DNA from: a virus | Direction: 5' to 3' (one strand) | DNA length: 44,434 nucleotides | Virus record (IMG/VR): IMGVR_UViG_3300025138_000003 | Span: 1 to 44,434 of that record | Shown: piece by piece, positions 4,060 through 42,195 of the stretch | Numbering within the stretch: position 1 is the first letter of the stretch | How the letters are laid out: each line of letters opens with the position of its first letter | Position numbers and translations under genes: made by a program | The notes under the pieces: model-generated | The model's database searches: none | Told to the model about the DNA's origin: nothing | Seen by the model: only the letters and a program-made list of their open reading frames with translations

Positions 4060-4083
4060 ATGTTAATAACTTGTGGATAACTT
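4060..4083 (+). repeat. 24-bp DnaA-box-containing element, copy 1
   Basis: Contains ATGTTAATAAC then TTGTGGATAACTT, including the consensus DnaA box TGTGGATAA. Near-identical copies lie at 5312-5335 (same strand, two changes) and 8870-8893 (opposite strand). Confidence 0.6.
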
Positions 4084-4097
4084 TATTTAATAAAAGT

Positions 4098-4156: not shown

Positions 4157-4390
4157 ATGTTATATAAAAAAACAGAACTAGATATTAAGAGAGAGACAAA
4201 AGAACTAATAGAGACAATAGAGAGAGATGTAGCCCATGATAGAAAAGTATTAGATAGCTTATTTATTAGCTTAAAAGATGTAGAATTAGAGGATGTGTTA
4301 GGAGCAATTAAAACAACTCTATCTGTAAATATGGAGACATTAAAAGAACTAGAAGAAGAACTAGAACAACTAACAAAGGAGAATAAATAA
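4157..4390 (+). CDS. Small coiled-coil hypothetical protein, 77 aa
   Basis: Starts at ATG 4157 after AACAAAAGGAGAATAA. The protein is highly charged and almost certainly helical; the C-terminal half (METLKELEEELEQLTKENK) has a clear coiled-coil heptad pattern. First rightward gene, in the early promoter class, so probably made early. No enzymatic motif. It could be a small regulator or host-modifying protein, but nothing proves it. Confidence 0.75.
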   Translation: MLYKKTELDIKRETKELIETIERDVAHDRKVLDSLFISLKDVELEDVLGAIKTTLSVNMETLKELEEELEQLTKENK

Positions 4391-4395
4391 GAGGC

Positions 4396-4439
4396 TATAA
4401 TATTTTAGGGTATACCAACATATACCCTAGGATATTATA
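4396..4439 (+). terminator. Large hairpin after the first rightward gene
   Basis: TATAATAT (4396-4403) pairs with ATATTATA (4432-4439), and after a 3x3 internal loop AGGGTATA (4407-4414) pairs with TATACCCT (4421-4428), loop CCAACA. It begins six bases after the stop codon. No U-tract follows, so it may be a stability or processing element rather than a classical intrinsic terminator. Confidence 0.45.
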
Positions 4440-5005: not shown

Positions 5006-5023
5006 CCTCGCTTTCGGGCGGGG
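5006..5023 (+). terminator. GC-rich hairpin, possible terminator
   Basis: CCTCGC (5006-5011) pairs with GCGGGG (5018-5023), loop TTTCGG, in otherwise AT-rich DNA. No U-tract follows directly. Together with 4929-4996 it separates the early rightward genes from the late block. Confidence 0.35.
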
Positions 5024-5056
5024 GGCTTTGGCAATGAAACAAGCTGACACATAATC

Positions 5057-5181
5057 CCCTAATATTTTTCTAATATTTTTTTTAAGGTAACCTTACTTCG
5101 GGTTCCCTAATATGTAGTGGGGGTAGGGTTCCTTACGTAAGGTTACCCTAATACGAGTACCCTAATAGGGTTACCCTAATA
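5057..5181 (+). repeat. CCCTAATA iterons and palindromes (late control region)
   Basis: CCCTAATA occurs at 5057, 5105, 5146, 5160 and 5174; the last three are spaced exactly 14 bp. Between them are the palindromes AAGGTAACCTT (5084-5094) and CCTTACGTAAGG (5131-5142). The same octamer, also with a 14-bp period but inverted, recurs at 25522 and 25536 beside the lysis promoter. This looks like a binding array for a specific protein (late activator, initiator or packaging protein) upstream of the terminase genes. No gene lies between 4928 and 5355. Confidence 0.6.
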
Positions 5182-5311
5182 AGCTAGCCCTCAAAACTCT
5201 TGTTTAAAGATAAGGTATTATAAGGCCTTTGTCAAGGATTATTCCTTCCTTCTCTCTATAAAGTAATCTTTTAAAGTAAAAACGCAAAAAGTTCTTGTAA
5301 GTATAAAGGTA

Positions 5312-5335
5312 ATGTTGATAACTTGTGGGTAACTT
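5312..5335 (+). repeat. 24-bp DnaA-box-like element, copy 2
   Basis: Differs from 4060-4083 at two positions, one of them inside the box (TGTGGGTAA). It lies just upstream of the first late gene's ribosome site (CAGGAGAAGTA), so it could also be part of a late promoter (TTGATA lies at 5316). Confidence 0.55.
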
Positions 5336-5355
5336 AATTACACACAGGAGAAGTA

Positions 5356-5804: not shown

Positions 5805-6555
5805 ACGAGCAATAGTATTCCCCGATATACACTTTCCTTTACATGACGAGAAAGCGTTATCGTGTGCACTACAAGCAATCGGAATAGTAAAACCAGATAT
5901 TTATATCAACATTGGAGACGTTGGAGAGTGGCATAACTTCTCAGCGTGGAAGTATAAAGGGAAGAAACTACCTTCATTGGAGTTTCAACTACCTTATTGC
6001 GACCAAGACATTAATGATGTGAACGAAGGATTAGATAGAATAGATGCTGAATTAGATAAGCATAACGTTGAAAAAAGATATATGCTGCAAGGCAATCATG
6101 AAATATGGATGGATAACTTTGTAGAGAAGTATCCCTATATGAAAGACTATACGTTTCCTAAAGCGTGTAGAATAAAAGAGCGTGGATATAAATACTACGA
6201 ATACAATGTTCCTTTAAAAATTGGAAAGATTAACTTTCTTCATGGTGCTTATGCAACTACGTACCATGCTAAAAAACATCTCGAGACATATGGAGCCAAT
6301 ATTATGTACGGCCATACACATGACGTACAGAGACATACATTAACAAAACTTGATGCAGGAACAATTGGAGCGTGGGGAATTGGATGTCTTAAAGATATGT
6401 CTCGAGAAAAAAACAAGTGGCTACGTGGCAGACTACACAACTGGAATCACGCATTTAGCATTATTACTTGGTTTCCTAATGGAAACTTTCAAGTAGAAGT
6501 CATTGAAATTGTAAATGGCAAATGCACTGTGTGGGGTAATGTTGTTGAAGCCTAA
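5779..6555 (+). CDS. Calcineurin-like metallophosphoesterase
   Basis: Protein of 258 aa from ATG 5779 (MAQTKQKLKR), chosen because AAGGAG lies eight bases ahead; an upstream in-frame start at 5749 lacks a site. The metal-binding motif set is complete and in order: D16-x-H18 (PDIHFP), G46-D47-x-x-E50, G105-N-H-E108, H155 (FLHGAY) and GHTHD 178-182. It should bind two metal ions and hydrolyse a phosphodiester or phosphomonoester; the substrate cannot be read from sequence. Overlaps the terminase small subunit start (TAATG). Phages often carry such an enzyme near terminase, where a role in DNA end processing or nucleotide metabolism is possible. Confidence 0.9.
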   Translation: MAQTKQKLKRAIVFPDIHFPLHDEKALSCALQAIGIVKPDIYINIGDVGEWHNFSAWKYKGKKLPSLEFQLPYCDQDINDVNEGLDRIDAELDKHNVEKRYMLQGNHEIWMDNFVEKYPYMKDYTFPKACRIKERGYKYYEYNVPLKIGKINFLHGAYATTYHAKKHLETYGANIMYGHTHDVQRHTLTKLDAGTIGAWGIGCLKDMSREKNKWLRGRLHNWNHAFSIITWFPNGNFQVEVIEIVNGKCTVWGNVVEA

Positions 6556-7289
6556 TGCATAAACGAATTGTTAAAGGCGTACCTCGTTATGTATTTAAAG
6601 ACGAAAAAGAATTTCGTTCTACCTTTCCGAATGAAGTCTTAGTTGAAGACTGGAGAAAAGGAGAAGAAAACGATTGGGTCCTTACTGACGATAAGAAGGT
6701 TACTCAAATACTTAAACGTAAAAAAATGAAGAATACTCATATCAGAGCATATGATGACTACTTCATAACATTACTTGGTCCATCGTTTGGTTCTGGTAAG
6801 ATGGAAGGTGAGCCTAAAAAAGATTATCACTCTTTTATGAAAAGAACAAACGTAGAAGAGAAACCATTAACGTGGAGAGAGATACGATTTGTTAAGATGA
6901 TTGCTCATGGAGAGCAACCTATGCAAGCATACCTAGACTGTTTTGAAACTAATAATGAAAAAACAGCAAAGATTAAATCGTCTGTACTCCTAAAACAAAC
7001 AAGGATAAAACAAGAAGTGGAAAAAGAAATAGAAGAACTGCTAAGTGATATTGGTATTGATAAACGATGGACACTAGAGCAAGCAAAGAATATTGTTGAG
7101 AACGATGAAACGTCTGATGCAGTTAAACTACGTGCATTAGAAAACTTTATGAAGATACAAAGTATGTATCCTAAAGAAAAGAAAAGCGAATCATTATTAT
7201 TGGGACAAGCTTTTACTGGATTTAGTAAAGAAGAAATACTTGAAATGAGCACTATGAAACTAATTAAAGATGGAAAAGAAGAGGATTAA
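6555..7289 (+). CDS. terS: Terminase small subunit (putative)
   Basis: Protein of 244 aa. Its position directly before the large terminase, with a 20-base overlap, and a C-terminal half typical of small terminases support the call. A helix-turn-helix-like segment begins at LTWREIRFVKMIAHGEQPMQ (105-124), followed by charged helices (RIKQEVEKEIEELLSDIGID). The N-terminal 100 residues (HKRIVKGVPRYVFKDEKEF) are an extra domain not recognised. Small terminases form rings that recognise packaging DNA and regulate the motor. Which sequence it binds is unknown; the iterons at 5057-5181 are one candidate. Confidence 0.75.
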   Translation: MHKRIVKGVPRYVFKDEKEFRSTFPNEVLVEDWRKGEENDWVLTDDKKVTQILKRKKMKNTHIRAYDDYFITLLGPSFGSGKMEGEPKKDYHSFMKRTNVEEKPLTWREIRFVKMIAHGEQPMQAYLDCFETNNEKTAKIKSSVLLKQTRIKQEVEKEIEELLSDIGIDKRWTLEQAKNIVENDETSDAVKLRALENFMKIQSMYPKEKKSESLLLGQAFTGFSKEEILEMSTMKLIKDGKEED

Positions 7290-23241: not shown

Positions 23242-23643
23242 ATGAATTGGTTATATGGTATTACATATTTGGTTGGTATTTGTTTATCGGTATCGCCCTT
23301 ATATGCTCAAAGTAGTTTAAAAGATTTACAGCAGATTCAATTATTGAGTCAAGACGAATGTATTATAGTCCAAGTAAATGCAGATTGGAACTTTAAAGCA
23401 TCGTTAGATTTGAATGGCTTAAATAATTGTGTATGGTTTAATGCAAGTATAGATGATAAAGAATACGGTGCAATTATTGCAGATGAGTGGAAGATAGTTT
23501 CTGTGCCAACAATAATTATGTTTGAATATGGTAAAGAAGTAAAAAGATTTGAAGCTGGATTAAGTTTCAATTTAGATAAAGATAAAATCATCAAGGAAAT
23601 CAAAGATGAAATTGATGAAATACAACTAAGGAAGTTTCAATGA
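23242..23643 (+). CDS. Exported thioredoxin-fold protein without CxxC
   Basis: Protein of 133 aa with a signal peptide (hydrophobic 5-20, predicted cut SPLYA/QSS after residue 22). The mature part follows the thioredoxin layout: strand IIVQVNADWN, helix, strand NCVWFNASIDD, then SVPTIIMFEYGKEVKRFEAG with the conserved cis-proline (P89). The active-site WCGPC is replaced by W49-N-F-K, so no thioredoxin redox activity is expected; C40 and C63 remain and could pair. Probably a periplasmic binding or chaperone-like protein. Its stop overlaps the next start (ATGA). Confidence 0.75.
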   Translation: MNWLYGITYLVGICLSVSPLYAQSSLKDLQQIQLLSQDECIIVQVNADWNFKASLDLNGLNNCVWFNASIDDKEYGAIIADEWKIVSVPTIIMFEYGKEVKRFEAGLSFNLDKDKIIKEIKDEIDEIQLRKFQ

Positions 23644-24731
23644 TATATTTAGCAAGATGGTTTAAAAAATTATTTGGTTGCGTGTTATTAATGGGAGCAT
23701 TAACAGCACAAGACTTTTTTAAGTTTAGCACTATATATGGTGCTTATAGCTTTAGCAGTCCTGTAACTAAAGAATTACAATACCAAGTATCTGGTGGACA
23801 ACTACAAGAATTACAAGAGGAGCTAGATGACCATAGTATTATGACATTTGGTATTAGAAAACTAGCAAGGTTTGGCTATGAGAACAAACCAGAAGTTTGG
23901 TATACAGGAGAAGAAGCACCTATAAATGAAAGTGCTGCTATTGGTAATGTACCTACTGGCTGGGAGTATGTAATACAATACTCTGACCACAAAGAGTTTG
24001 AAGAAGAGTTTGTAAACGAACAATATATGTTACGATATATGGGAAAGAATTTTTTAGTAAAAGCTAACTATGATTCCAGAGGATTAGAAGATGTAGAGTT
24101 TGCAGCATTAGATATGCGTTACAAAAAAGATGTAGGTAATCTAGCACTATCATTAGGAGTAGCTGGTAGAATGCATCCAGCATACTTAGACTTTAGACCT
24201 ATTGATTTATGGTGGGCTGAACAAGATATTAACACAGATGAGTTTACACCCTTTTGGGACTTTGCTTATTTCTATGGCTATTCAGATGAGTTTGTAGAAC
24301 AGTTTACACAATATGGATATAGTTACTTTGATTTCAAATGGTATGATGCAGAAGGAAACCTTGTTGCTAATACTGATGAACAATTCTATAAACAAGTATA
24401 TGGAGAGCTTGTTAAACAATATAATGAAGAATATGCAAAAGACTTAGGATACCAGAACGAACTAAGTTTATCAGTAGGTGCAGACTATTATAAATACACA
24501 CCTAAGAACTGGTTGCATATGTGGGTTACAGCTTACCCAGTAACTAAAGGTATGTCTGACTATGCCTTTAACTATGAAGTAGCCGAGAATGGCATTGATT
24601 ACGACTTAGGAATGGTCTATGGTTGGAAGCTTACTAATAAGTTTGGAGTATTTTTAGAAGGTAGATTCTTGTCAATGTACGATGTACAGTCTTATGAGTC
24701 CAAGGTTGGACTTAACTGGTTGATATACTAA
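23640..24731 (+). CDS. Exported beta-barrel-like outer-membrane protein
   Basis: Protein of 363 aa with a signal peptide (cut predicted at GALTA/QDF, after residue 23). The mature protein is rich in alternating aromatic and polar strands (YVIQYSDHKEFEEEF, NEQYMLRYMGKNFLVKANYD, DYDLGMVYGWKLTNKFGVFL) and ends in VGLNWLIY, an aromatic C-terminus as in outer-membrane barrels. A phage-made outer-membrane protein could block superinfection, alter the receptor or aid lysis. It lies directly after the exported thioredoxin-fold gene and is translationally coupled to it. Confidence 0.65.
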   Translation: MIYLARWFKKLFGCVLLMGALTAQDFFKFSTIYGAYSFSSPVTKELQYQVSGGQLQELQEELDDHSIMTFGIRKLARFGYENKPEVWYTGEEAPINESAAIGNVPTGWEYVIQYSDHKEFEEEFVNEQYMLRYMGKNFLVKANYDSRGLEDVEFAALDMRYKKDVGNLALSLGVAGRMHPAYLDFRPIDLWWAEQDINTDEFTPFWDFAYFYGYSDEFVEQFTQYGYSYFDFKWYDAEGNLVANTDEQFYKQVYGELVKQYNEEYAKDLGYQNELSLSVGADYYKYTPKNWLHMWVTAYPVTKGMSDYAFNYEVAENGIDYDLGMVYGWKLTNKFGVFLEGRFLSMYDVQSYESKVGLNWLIY

Positions 24732-25469: not shown

Positions 25470-25498
25470 TTGACAAAAAGGTCATAACCAGTTATCTT
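25470..25498 (+). promoter_or_regulatory. Sigma-70-type promoter before the lysis genes
   Basis: TTGACA (25470-25475), 17 nt, TATCTT (25493-25498): a perfect -35 hexamer with ideal spacing. It precedes the small membrane protein, holin and endolysin. It is different in kind from the TGGGAAC family. Confidence 0.65.
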
Positions 25499-25521
25499 TG
25501 AAGACTACTTCAAGGGACTGG

Positions 25522-25543
25522 TATTAGGGTTACCCTATTAGGG
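25522..25543 (-). repeat. Inverted CCCTAATA iterons downstream of the lysis promoter
   Basis: TATTAGGG at 25522 and 25536 (14-bp period) is the reverse complement of the octamer array at 5057-5181; between them AGGGTTACCCT forms a near-palindrome. The site starts about 23 bases after the -10 element, where a bound protein or RNA hairpin could act as an operator or roadblock. Confidence 0.5.
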
Positions 25544-25574: not shown

Positions 25575-25724
25575 ATGAAATTTTTATTAGGAATAGGGTT
25601 TGGTTGGGGACTTCAATATGCATGGTGTAAGTATAAAGAAAAGTGTGATTGCGGAGAATACTCAAACATAATGAAATTAAAAAATAAATTAAATAAAATA
25701 AAGAAGAGTAAAAAAAATGCCTAA
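25575..25724 (+). CDS. Small membrane-associated protein of the lysis block, 49 aa
   Basis: ATG 25575 with a strong ACGGGAGGATAT site; overlaps the holin start by eight bases. Short hydrophobic N-terminus (MKFLLGIGFGWGLQYAW), three Cys (CKYKEKCDC) and a very basic tail. It may be a holin partner, antiholin or minimal spanin-like peptide. The function is inferred only from position. Confidence 0.6.
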   Translation: MKFLLGIGFGWGLQYAWCKYKEKCDCGEYSNIMKLKNKLNKIKKSKKNA

Positions 25725-26088
25725 ATTAAATATGATTGCAAATATTATTGATAAAGTAGCTGGTCATGTAGACAAGTTTACTTTAGACAAAGAGGAACAA
25801 GCACAATTAATACAAGAGATAAACAAGGCACAGATAGAAGTCAACAAGATAGAGTCTTCTTCTTCCAGTCTATTCAAGAGTGGTTGGCGTCCGTTCGTAG
25901 GTTGGACTTGTGGAGTAGCTTTATGTTATCACTTCGTATTGCAACCCTTCTTAATGTTTGTACTCTTATCTGTTGGGAAACCTATGGAACTCCCAGTATT
26001 CGATATGAGCACACTAACGACAGTACTTTTTGGAATGTTAGGTCTTGGGGGAATGCGTTCACTGGAAAAAGTGAAGAGGTCAGCTTAG
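25717..26088 (+). CDS. Holin (3-TM gene-transfer-agent type)
   Basis: Protein of 123 aa. An N-terminal amphipathic helix with coiled-coil character (FTLDKEEQAQLIQEINKAQI), then FKSGWRPFVGWTCGVALCYH (53-72) leading the first membrane hairpin (about 59-85), then a second span (TLTTVLFGMLGLGGMRSLEK, 99-118). This matches the Holin_3TM family. It should form the inner-membrane hole that releases the endolysin. The endolysin GTG overlaps its stop by one base. Confidence 0.85.
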   Translation: MPKLNMIANIIDKVAGHVDKFTLDKEEQAQLIQEINKAQIEVNKIESSSSSLFKSGWRPFVGWTCGVALCYHFVLQPFLMFVLLSVGKPMELPVFDMSTLTTVLFGMLGLGGMRSLEKVKRSA

Positions 26089-39476: not shown

Positions 39477-39624
39477 ATTTTTTATTTGGTTTATAACAAT
39501 CTTCTTCCAATCCTAAATAAGTTCTCATCCACCAATTATATTTACTTGTGTAAATACAATGTTGCATATCAAATAAGTCTTCATTCTTTTTTTGAATTAA
39601 AGATTTTAACTTGGCTCTCTTCAC
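39457..39624 (-). CDS. Small hypothetical protein, 55 aa (GTG start)
   Basis: GTG at 39624 follows GGAGTAAGA with good spacing, inside the end of the upstream gene. It reads KRAKLKSLIQKKNEDLFDMQ, then HCIYTSKYNWWMRTYLGLEE and ends KKYEEKKN, overlapping the next start by 20 bases. The dense aromatic motif NWWMRTYLG looks conserved rather than random. Without this gene there would be a 104-base gap in a tightly packed operon. Function unknown. Confidence 0.6.
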   Translation of the reverse strand: MKRAKLKSLIQKKNEDLFDMQHCIYTSKYNWWMRTYLGLEEDCYKPNKKYEEKKN

Positions 39625-39919
39625 TCTTACTCCACTCAGATAAAGACAAACCTATTTGATTTCCAAAACCTCTATTAAAAGAGAACCCTCTATTACTTAG
39701 GTTCACTATAGACGTATGGTACTCTAAACCAGTTCGTTTATCTTTTACTTTTATTTTACTTGCTCCCATTTCTTTAGCTTTTGACAGAGCCAACTCATCA
39801 AATGCTATTGCACGAGGAGTTCGTAGAAAATCTTTAGAAGAATCTAACTCTTTTGTAAAAGTTTCACCCTCTATTTTTCCTACTACTTTCTTGTTTATCT
39901 TTACTTCTTTTTTCTTCAT
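39581..39919 (-). CDS. Hypothetical protein, 112 aa
   Basis: Beta-rich start (KKEVKINKKVVGKIEGETFT), then RTPRAIAFDELALSKAKEMG and a strand-rich SKIKVKDKRTGLEYHTSIVN; ends FGNQIGLSLSEWSKSEES. No strong ribosome site. Similar short proteins occur beside recombination genes in environmental phages, but I cannot name the family. Confidence 0.65.
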   Translation of the reverse strand: MKKKEVKINKKVVGKIEGETFTKELDSSKDFLRTPRAIAFDELALSKAKEMGASKIKVKDKRTGLEYHTSIVNLSNRGFSFNRGFGNQIGLSLSEWSKSEESQVKIFNSKKE

Positions 39920-41865: not shown

Positions 41866-42195
41866 TTAACTTCTTAAATGATATGTAGCATAATTTCTAC
41901 CTTCACCACCAGTAGTTTCAATCACATACCCTTGTTGCTTTAAGGTAAAGATGATACCTGACAATCTAGTTGCATTATATAATTGTATAGCATCCCAACT
42001 AGTGATAGTCCCATGCTCCTCTAAATGTTTTAACACATATAAAGTTTTGCTTGGTCTACCTTTAGCTGAAGTTATTCTAGCTCTACCTGTCTTTAAGGTA
42101 GGTATGTTAGAATGTTTCTTTCTACCTGTTGCATAGGTCTTTCTCTTAGGTCCTTCTGCGTGTTTCTTTCTTCCTGTTGCATATGTCTTAGCCAT
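41866..42195 (-). CDS. Winged-helix DNA-binding protein with repeated basic N-terminus
   Basis: Protein of 109 aa. The ten-residue unit KTYATGRKKH occurs twice (3-12 and 19-28), followed by an AT-hook-like KGRPSK (45-50). The rest is a small winged helix: LYVLKHLEEHGTITSWDAIQ, LYNATRLSGIIFTLKQQGY and a wing ETTGGEGRNYATYHL. A DNA-binding regulator or nucleoid-type protein is likely; it is the best candidate in this genome for a regulator of the TGGGAAC promoters, but this is only an inference. Confidence 0.75.
   Translation of the reverse strand: MAKTYATGRKKHAEGPKRKTYATGRKKHSNIPTLKTGRARITSAKGRPSKTLYVLKHLEEHGTITSWDAIQLYNATRLSGIIFTLKQQGYVIETTGGEGRNYATYHLRS

Follow-up and report, generated by a model that had tools for sequence, protein, structure and literature searches.

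Promoter-linked octamer boxes at two sites of an uncultured marine phage lineage: a putative operator array at the early/late junction and a two-box copy before the lysis genes

Tandem-operator repressors, such as MetJ on its met boxes and omega on its heptads, cooperatively read short tandem half-sites that lie beside a promoter. At the left end of phage T7, we measured CCTAAAG-type repeats at 13-bp steps between positions 175 and 332, beside the terminal repeat, and the annotated leftward E. coli promoter A0, with its -35 hexamer TTGACT at position 259, reads back through these repeats. The pac site of phage SPP1 contains direct repeats and spans promoters (PMC4737164). The DNA-binding domain of the SF6 small terminase subunit (TerS) has a weak preference for TTAGGTT, and the authors of that study conclude that repeats matter little for its binding (PMC4737164). 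The anatomy of iteron origins of replication is as described in PMC10797057.

The DNA analyzed here, referred to as the window, is the whole 44,434-base record of an uncultured marine virus of bacteria, with an 87-bp overlap of the contig ends that lies away from the first box array and may be an assembly overlap. The interval from 5.36 to 37.7 kb holds the rightward late genes, including those for TerS, TerL, portal, and capsid, and the early genes run leftward, flanking the record ends on both sides. The encoded proteins include an Erf annealing protein, a PD-(D/E)XK exonuclease, an SSB-like protein, and a 3TM holin. The 30-odd proteins scanned, which are part of the open reading frames, include no replicative polymerase, helicase, primase, RNA polymerase, or integrase, and the absence of the first three from this set suggests that replication by the host is needed. 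TerL is only 22 to 26% identical to its counterparts in cultured phages among the best-covered matches, a portal search of phage records gave no match, and TerL, used to search a bacterial genome collection for a host or prophage, recovered no relative. By these comparisons, the lineage appears to be uncultured. The late region also encodes a possible secreted or outer-membrane-like protein (23640-24731) and a thioredoxin-like protein (23242-23643), which may help to find the host.

The window contains seven copies of the octamer CCCTAATA, against 1.68 expected from dinucleotide shuffles, and none of 100 shuffles reached seven. The sequence-only reading had described five copies at 5057-5181, three of them at 14-bp steps and with palindromic pieces between the boxes, and two inverted copies at 25522-25543. 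All of these positions and spacings are confirmed by the octamer count, and the copies fall at two sites only, being numbered here outward from the promoters P1 and P2 described below:

5057-5064, plus strand: box 5 of array 1, distal, CCCTAATA
5105-5112, plus strand: box 4 of array 1, distal, CCCTAATA
5146-5153, plus strand: box 3 of array 1, CCCTAATA
5160-5167, plus strand: box 2 of array 1, CCCTAATA
5174-5181, plus strand: box 1 of array 1, CCCTAATA, closest to P1 and 25 nt past its -10 hexamer
25522-25529, minus strand: box 1 of array 2, 23 nt past the -10 hexamer of P2
25536-25543, minus strand: box 2 of array 2

From left to right, the boxes are spaced by 48, 41, 14, and 14 bp in array 1 and by 14 bp in array 2. 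The 14-bp pair, CCCTAATA-N6-CCCTAATA, is found three times in the window, with 0.00 expected. Copies with random spacing elsewhere, which would count against the arrays, were found neither in this genome nor in its kin: in six near-complete genomes of the clade, the window included, no CCCTAATA lies outside the two sites, where Markov models predict 5.7 to 7.2. This depletion is suggestive, the six genomes being related to each other.

An explanation of the boxes by chance or simple sequence drift has a probability close to negligible. It could appeal to the A+T-rich genome and to the boxes with one mismatch, which are at chance level in the window (35 seen and 40 expected) and thereby indicate that the exact box is what is maintained. 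However, the shuffles never reached the number of exact copies, and the array is conserved in dozens of contigs, which already refutes drift. When 2.9 million viral contigs were scanned for the 14-bp pair, 45 stretches emerged, 40 of which have the promoter-plus-box module of this lineage. The pairs in the other five (L004, L027, L032, L036, and L038) have no promoter context and look like chance, which by our estimate fits a collection of this size.

A different element, AGTTGGGAAC, has exactly five copies (at 1270, 1882, 4014, 41852, and 43991), all of them in the early part of the genome, and six copies if up to one mismatch is allowed, against 2 expected; it is possibly an early-gene control or terminator element. 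At 4396-4439, 3' of the gene at 4157-4390, a 19-pair hairpin with the arms TTTTAGGGTATA and TATACCCTAGGA includes the box-like TTAGGGT and is probably the terminator of that gene.

Both arrays lie just downstream of a promoter of one type, TTGACA-N17-TATCTT, in the same relative orientation, and this linkage of boxes and promoter at both sites is a new point that the first reading had missed:

5207-5235, minus strand: P1, leftward sigma70-like promoter (-35 TTGACA at 5230-5235, 17-bp spacer, -10 TATCTT at 5207-5212)
5194-5205, no strand assigned: inverted repeat AAAC/GTTT, centered about 7.5 nt past the -10 hexamer, near the P1 start point
25470-25498, plus strand: P2, rightward promoter of the lysis cassette (-35 TTGACA at 25470-25475, 17-bp spacer, -10 TATCTT at 25493-25498)
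25498-25513, no strand assigned: inverted repeat TTGAAG-ACTA-CTTCAA, at the P2 start point

Read from the promoter, both sites continue with a short inverted repeat, which surrounds the expected start base, and then with the TATTAGGG boxes. In a leader search that required TTATCTT and permitted 18 to 30 nt between the -10 hexamer and the first box, this distance was 22 to 25 nt in all 26 distinct leaders. The -35 hexamer varies (TTGACA, TTGACT, TTGGAA, and TAGGAA) but keeps a constant distance. TTATCT is invariant also in an alignment of TerL-anchored regions, and P1 is conserved in the relatives.

The leftward direction of the array 1 promoter is the main correction to the sequence-only reading, according to which array 1 controls the block from terminase to capsid. 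The sole conserved promoter there reads away from those genes and does not support this assignment. The P1 transcript would be antisense to two small genes that run rightward, with no evident product, which counts against the operator reading favored below.

The boxes lie in the first transcribed region at both promoters, and the dyad at the start point has compensating arms: in 13 distinct leaders, the arms around position 7 to 8 after TTATCTT are mostly complementary despite their differing sequences (for example, AAAGA/TCTTT and TTAAC/GTTAA in relatives). Both features would suit boxes that act in RNA, as part of a leader or noncoding RNA or in an antitermination-like manner, which we nevertheless consider very improbable. 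The dyad is centered on the expected first transcribed base, the usual start point, so that only half of it would be transcribed, which makes a full hairpin in the RNA improbable. A weak consensus fold was obtained (energy of -9.9, with a covariation of -0.98 over 294 columns), and an Rfam search gave no match, for which reasons the RNA element was rejected as the main reading and the boxes more likely act as DNA.

We favor, with moderate confidence, the reading that the boxes are operator or iteron sites through which a single DNA-binding protein of the phage acts on sigma70-type promoters. The boxes hold a fixed place relative to the promoter at every site, and one protein at both arrays is the simplest reading because the promoter, the first-box offset, and the boxes are all the same. 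A single sequence-specific phage protein would bind at both sites within the first transcribed stretch, with the first box beginning about 16 to 18 bases into the transcript, and by coating the boxes it would most likely block or retune the promoter. Site 1 would be the large version, controlling the leftward promoter in the conserved block at the early/late junction, and site 2 would be the two-box version of the same module, placed before the lysis genes of the closest relatives. The earlier proposal that one phage protein may bind both arrays and time late expression gains from their common design and loses the late control of the terminase-to-capsid block.

Site 2 contains a promoter, a dyad, and two boxes and nothing more, suggesting that these form the smallest conserved unit. 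It precedes varying small genes and the holin gene:

25717-26088, plus strand: holin (GTA_holin_3TM), downstream of P2

Site 2 is present in the window, G001, G002, G014, G015, and a few smaller contigs (L010, L018, L042, and L043). It is missing from G012, though array 1 and a 67%-identical holin are present there, which makes it a lineage-specific addition and no fixed part of a late program. Judged from sequence, array 2 would drive the lysis cassette, in the closest relatives only. The two arrays might furthermore work together as a copy-number timer, which we regard as improbable: array 1, with four to seven boxes per genome, would titrate a limited phage repressor until genome replication frees the two-box lysis operator. 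If this were true, holin synthesis would begin only once enough DNA had been made, and ideally array 1 itself would be the origin or packaging site.

Array 1 is embedded in a larger conserved block. In contigs with a TerL identity of at least 85% that reach that far, it lies about 2.0 to 2.2 kb upstream of TerL in constant orientation, and the relatives keep, from left to right, a G+C-rich hairpin (in most), a G-run, an ACACA motif, paired T-tracts, the boxes, and the leftward promoter. The leftmost elements are found in the window at the following positions:

5006-5025, plus strand: G+C-rich hairpin CCTCGC/GCGGGG, including the G-run GGGGGG at 5020-5025
5037-5056, plus strand: conserved motif AAACAAGCTGACACATAATC (ACACA block)
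5057-5083, no strand assigned: AT-rich T-tract stretch with two copies of CTAATATTTTT, conserved as paired T-tracts

In the most divergent contigs (L053, L055, and L082), many boxes are TATTAAGG or TATGTAAGG. A sister clade, with a TerL identity of about 72%, keeps the element order and the leftward TTGAC[AT] promoter in every one of the 20 regions examined, and its boxes differ, being TACTAT repeats mostly at 8- to 10-bp steps, with another AT-rich repeat in the box slot of L116 and L122. A layout that is kept while the box is replaced is as expected if the box evolves together with its binding protein, and this wholesale replacement between two clades provides a natural experiment for finding the binder. 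An operator alone does not account for the conservation to the left of the boxes (G-run, ACACA motif, and T-tracts), and the array 1 block would probably have a second, genome-handling role in packaging or the start of replication. The suggestion of the earlier reading that array 1 may be an origin or pac site is strengthened by the conserved flanks (G-run, AT-rich tracts, array, and leftward promoter) and by the similar left end of T7. Separately, we observed that L183 and L196, two sister-clade contigs from the same metagenome, share an overlap of about 77 bp within the ACACA/AT-rich block, as though the sample contained two strains that are identical over this stretch and different on both flanks.

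The following proteins were considered as candidates for binding the boxes:

6555-7289, plus strand: terminase small subunit (TerS), candidate box binder with a C-terminal helix-turn-helix in its structure model
41866-42195, minus strand: HTH_39 winged-helix protein, candidate binder

The helix-turn-helix of the TerS model is similar to the DNA-binding domain of the SF6 small terminase (PDB ID 4zc3), with a TM score of 0.80 by target length and a nonsignificant Foldseek E value of 1.8, and the TTAGGTT preferred by that domain is near the box core TTAGGGT, which we treat as a lead only. The HTH_39 protein is weakened as a candidate by its absence from G012, where the boxes are the same. The protein at 39581-39919, which every CCCTAATA phage conserves and the sister clade lacks, was discarded because its AlphaFold model is poor (pLDDT 60) and has no evident DNA-binding fold, and no ribbon-helix-helix or other fitting repressor was identified. 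Ahead of the helix-turn-helix, the TerS model also has an N-terminal domain, beta-rich, about 80 residues long, and predicted with confidence, which seems unusual for a small terminase and gave no significant structural match.

TerS is central to the alternative that array 1 is chiefly a pac site or a T7-like terminus, where TerS would read the boxes, TerL would cut nearby, the leftward promoter would correspond to A0, and site 2 would be a borrowed copy serving as an operator. This is possible by analogy, if on the whole unlikely. The T7 left end likewise combines repeats with the leftward A0 next to a terminal repeat. The distance from the block to terS, which lies downstream, is about 1.3 kb in the window and similar in the relatives. 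TerS is found in all phages of the CCCTAATA clade with 74 to 93% identity and is 39% identical to that of the clade with the swapped box, and both the likeness of its model to the SF6 domain and the weak sequence preference of that domain (PMC4737164) would fit a box-reading TerS. However, the other structural proteins diverge as much as TerS, the SF6 domain is little affected by repeats (PMC4737164), and site 2 would make no sense as a packaging site. Contigs also cross the block freely, with ends not stacked at one base, which argues against a cos-type end and not against pac or terminal repeats. A cos site was accordingly rejected, as many contigs pass through the G-run unbroken and the near-complete contigs end elsewhere. 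Used as a test for a genome terminus, the contig ends show no pileup, and the breaks lie in variable genes or in the strain-shared block.

We judge it unlikely that array 1 is an iteron origin, in which, by analogy, an initiator would bind the boxes, the T-tracts would open with the help of leftward transcription, and the host replisome would be recruited. The direct repeats at fixed spacing do adjoin an 83% AT stretch suited to unwinding, leftward and rightward genes diverge at the block, and the DnaA-box-like TTATCCACA occurs nearby, with tandem copies at 11-bp steps in L053, L055, L061, and L073 and single copies at 4080 and 5332 of the window. DnaA boxes by the block are present in the window, these four contigs, and G001, but G012, G003, and the sister clade lack them. 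The proteins scanned include no Rep-like or O-type initiator, and the small HTH_39 protein is not shared by G012. Nor does the GC skew favor an origin, since it tracks gene direction and not the array, with the rightward genes left of the array staying positive; following the gene strand without an array-specific switch, it was set aside as uninformative. The DnaA-box sequences TTATCCACA and TTACCCACA are part of a 28-nt element at 4060-4087 and 5312-5339, the copies of which are 89% alike, that precedes two rightward genes. Upstream of the array in L053 and L055, this element is expanded to tandem TTGTGGATAAC at 11-bp steps in one orientation.

With the boxes read as promoter-linked operator or iteron sites, an uncultured marine phage lineage gains a defined cis-acting control block, the promoter-plus-boxes module of which is reused at the lysis cassette. 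As with MetJ and omega, short tandem half-sites lie by a promoter, where those of site 2 are alternating TAGGG and CCCTA about 7 bp apart. The origins of the RK2, F, and R6K plasmids and of lambda share the direct repeats at constant spacing by AT-rich DNA, with DnaA boxes near in some of the relatives, whereas here no Rep- or O-type initiator was found among the proteins scanned, the DnaA boxes are not conserved, and a two-box copy lies at the lysis promoter. The SPP1/SF6 pac region may be similar in having direct repeats that span a promoter upstream of the terminase genes, together with the SF6-like helix-turn-helix predicted for TerS, whereas in SPP1, pac and the beginning of the small terminase gene overlap, and the array here lies about 1.3 kb upstream of that gene.

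The closest layout to array 1 that we know is the T7 left end. Both have short direct repeats with a fixed step on the plus strand (13 bp in T7 and 14 bp here), a leftward host-type promoter to the right of the repeats that reads into them (here at 5235 on the minus strand), and a G/C-run hairpin further left. They differ in that the T7 repeats adjoin a terminal repeat, whereas the 87-bp end overlap of the record described here lies away from the array. Here, moreover, the early genes run leftward, the box is different, a second two-box copy lies at the lysis promoter, and no T7-type RNA polymerase is among the 30-odd proteins scanned, which are part of the open reading frames. If the likeness holds, it makes a second, unrelated phage group available for tests of why short repeats are paired with a leftward promoter, an arrangement that is poorly understood.
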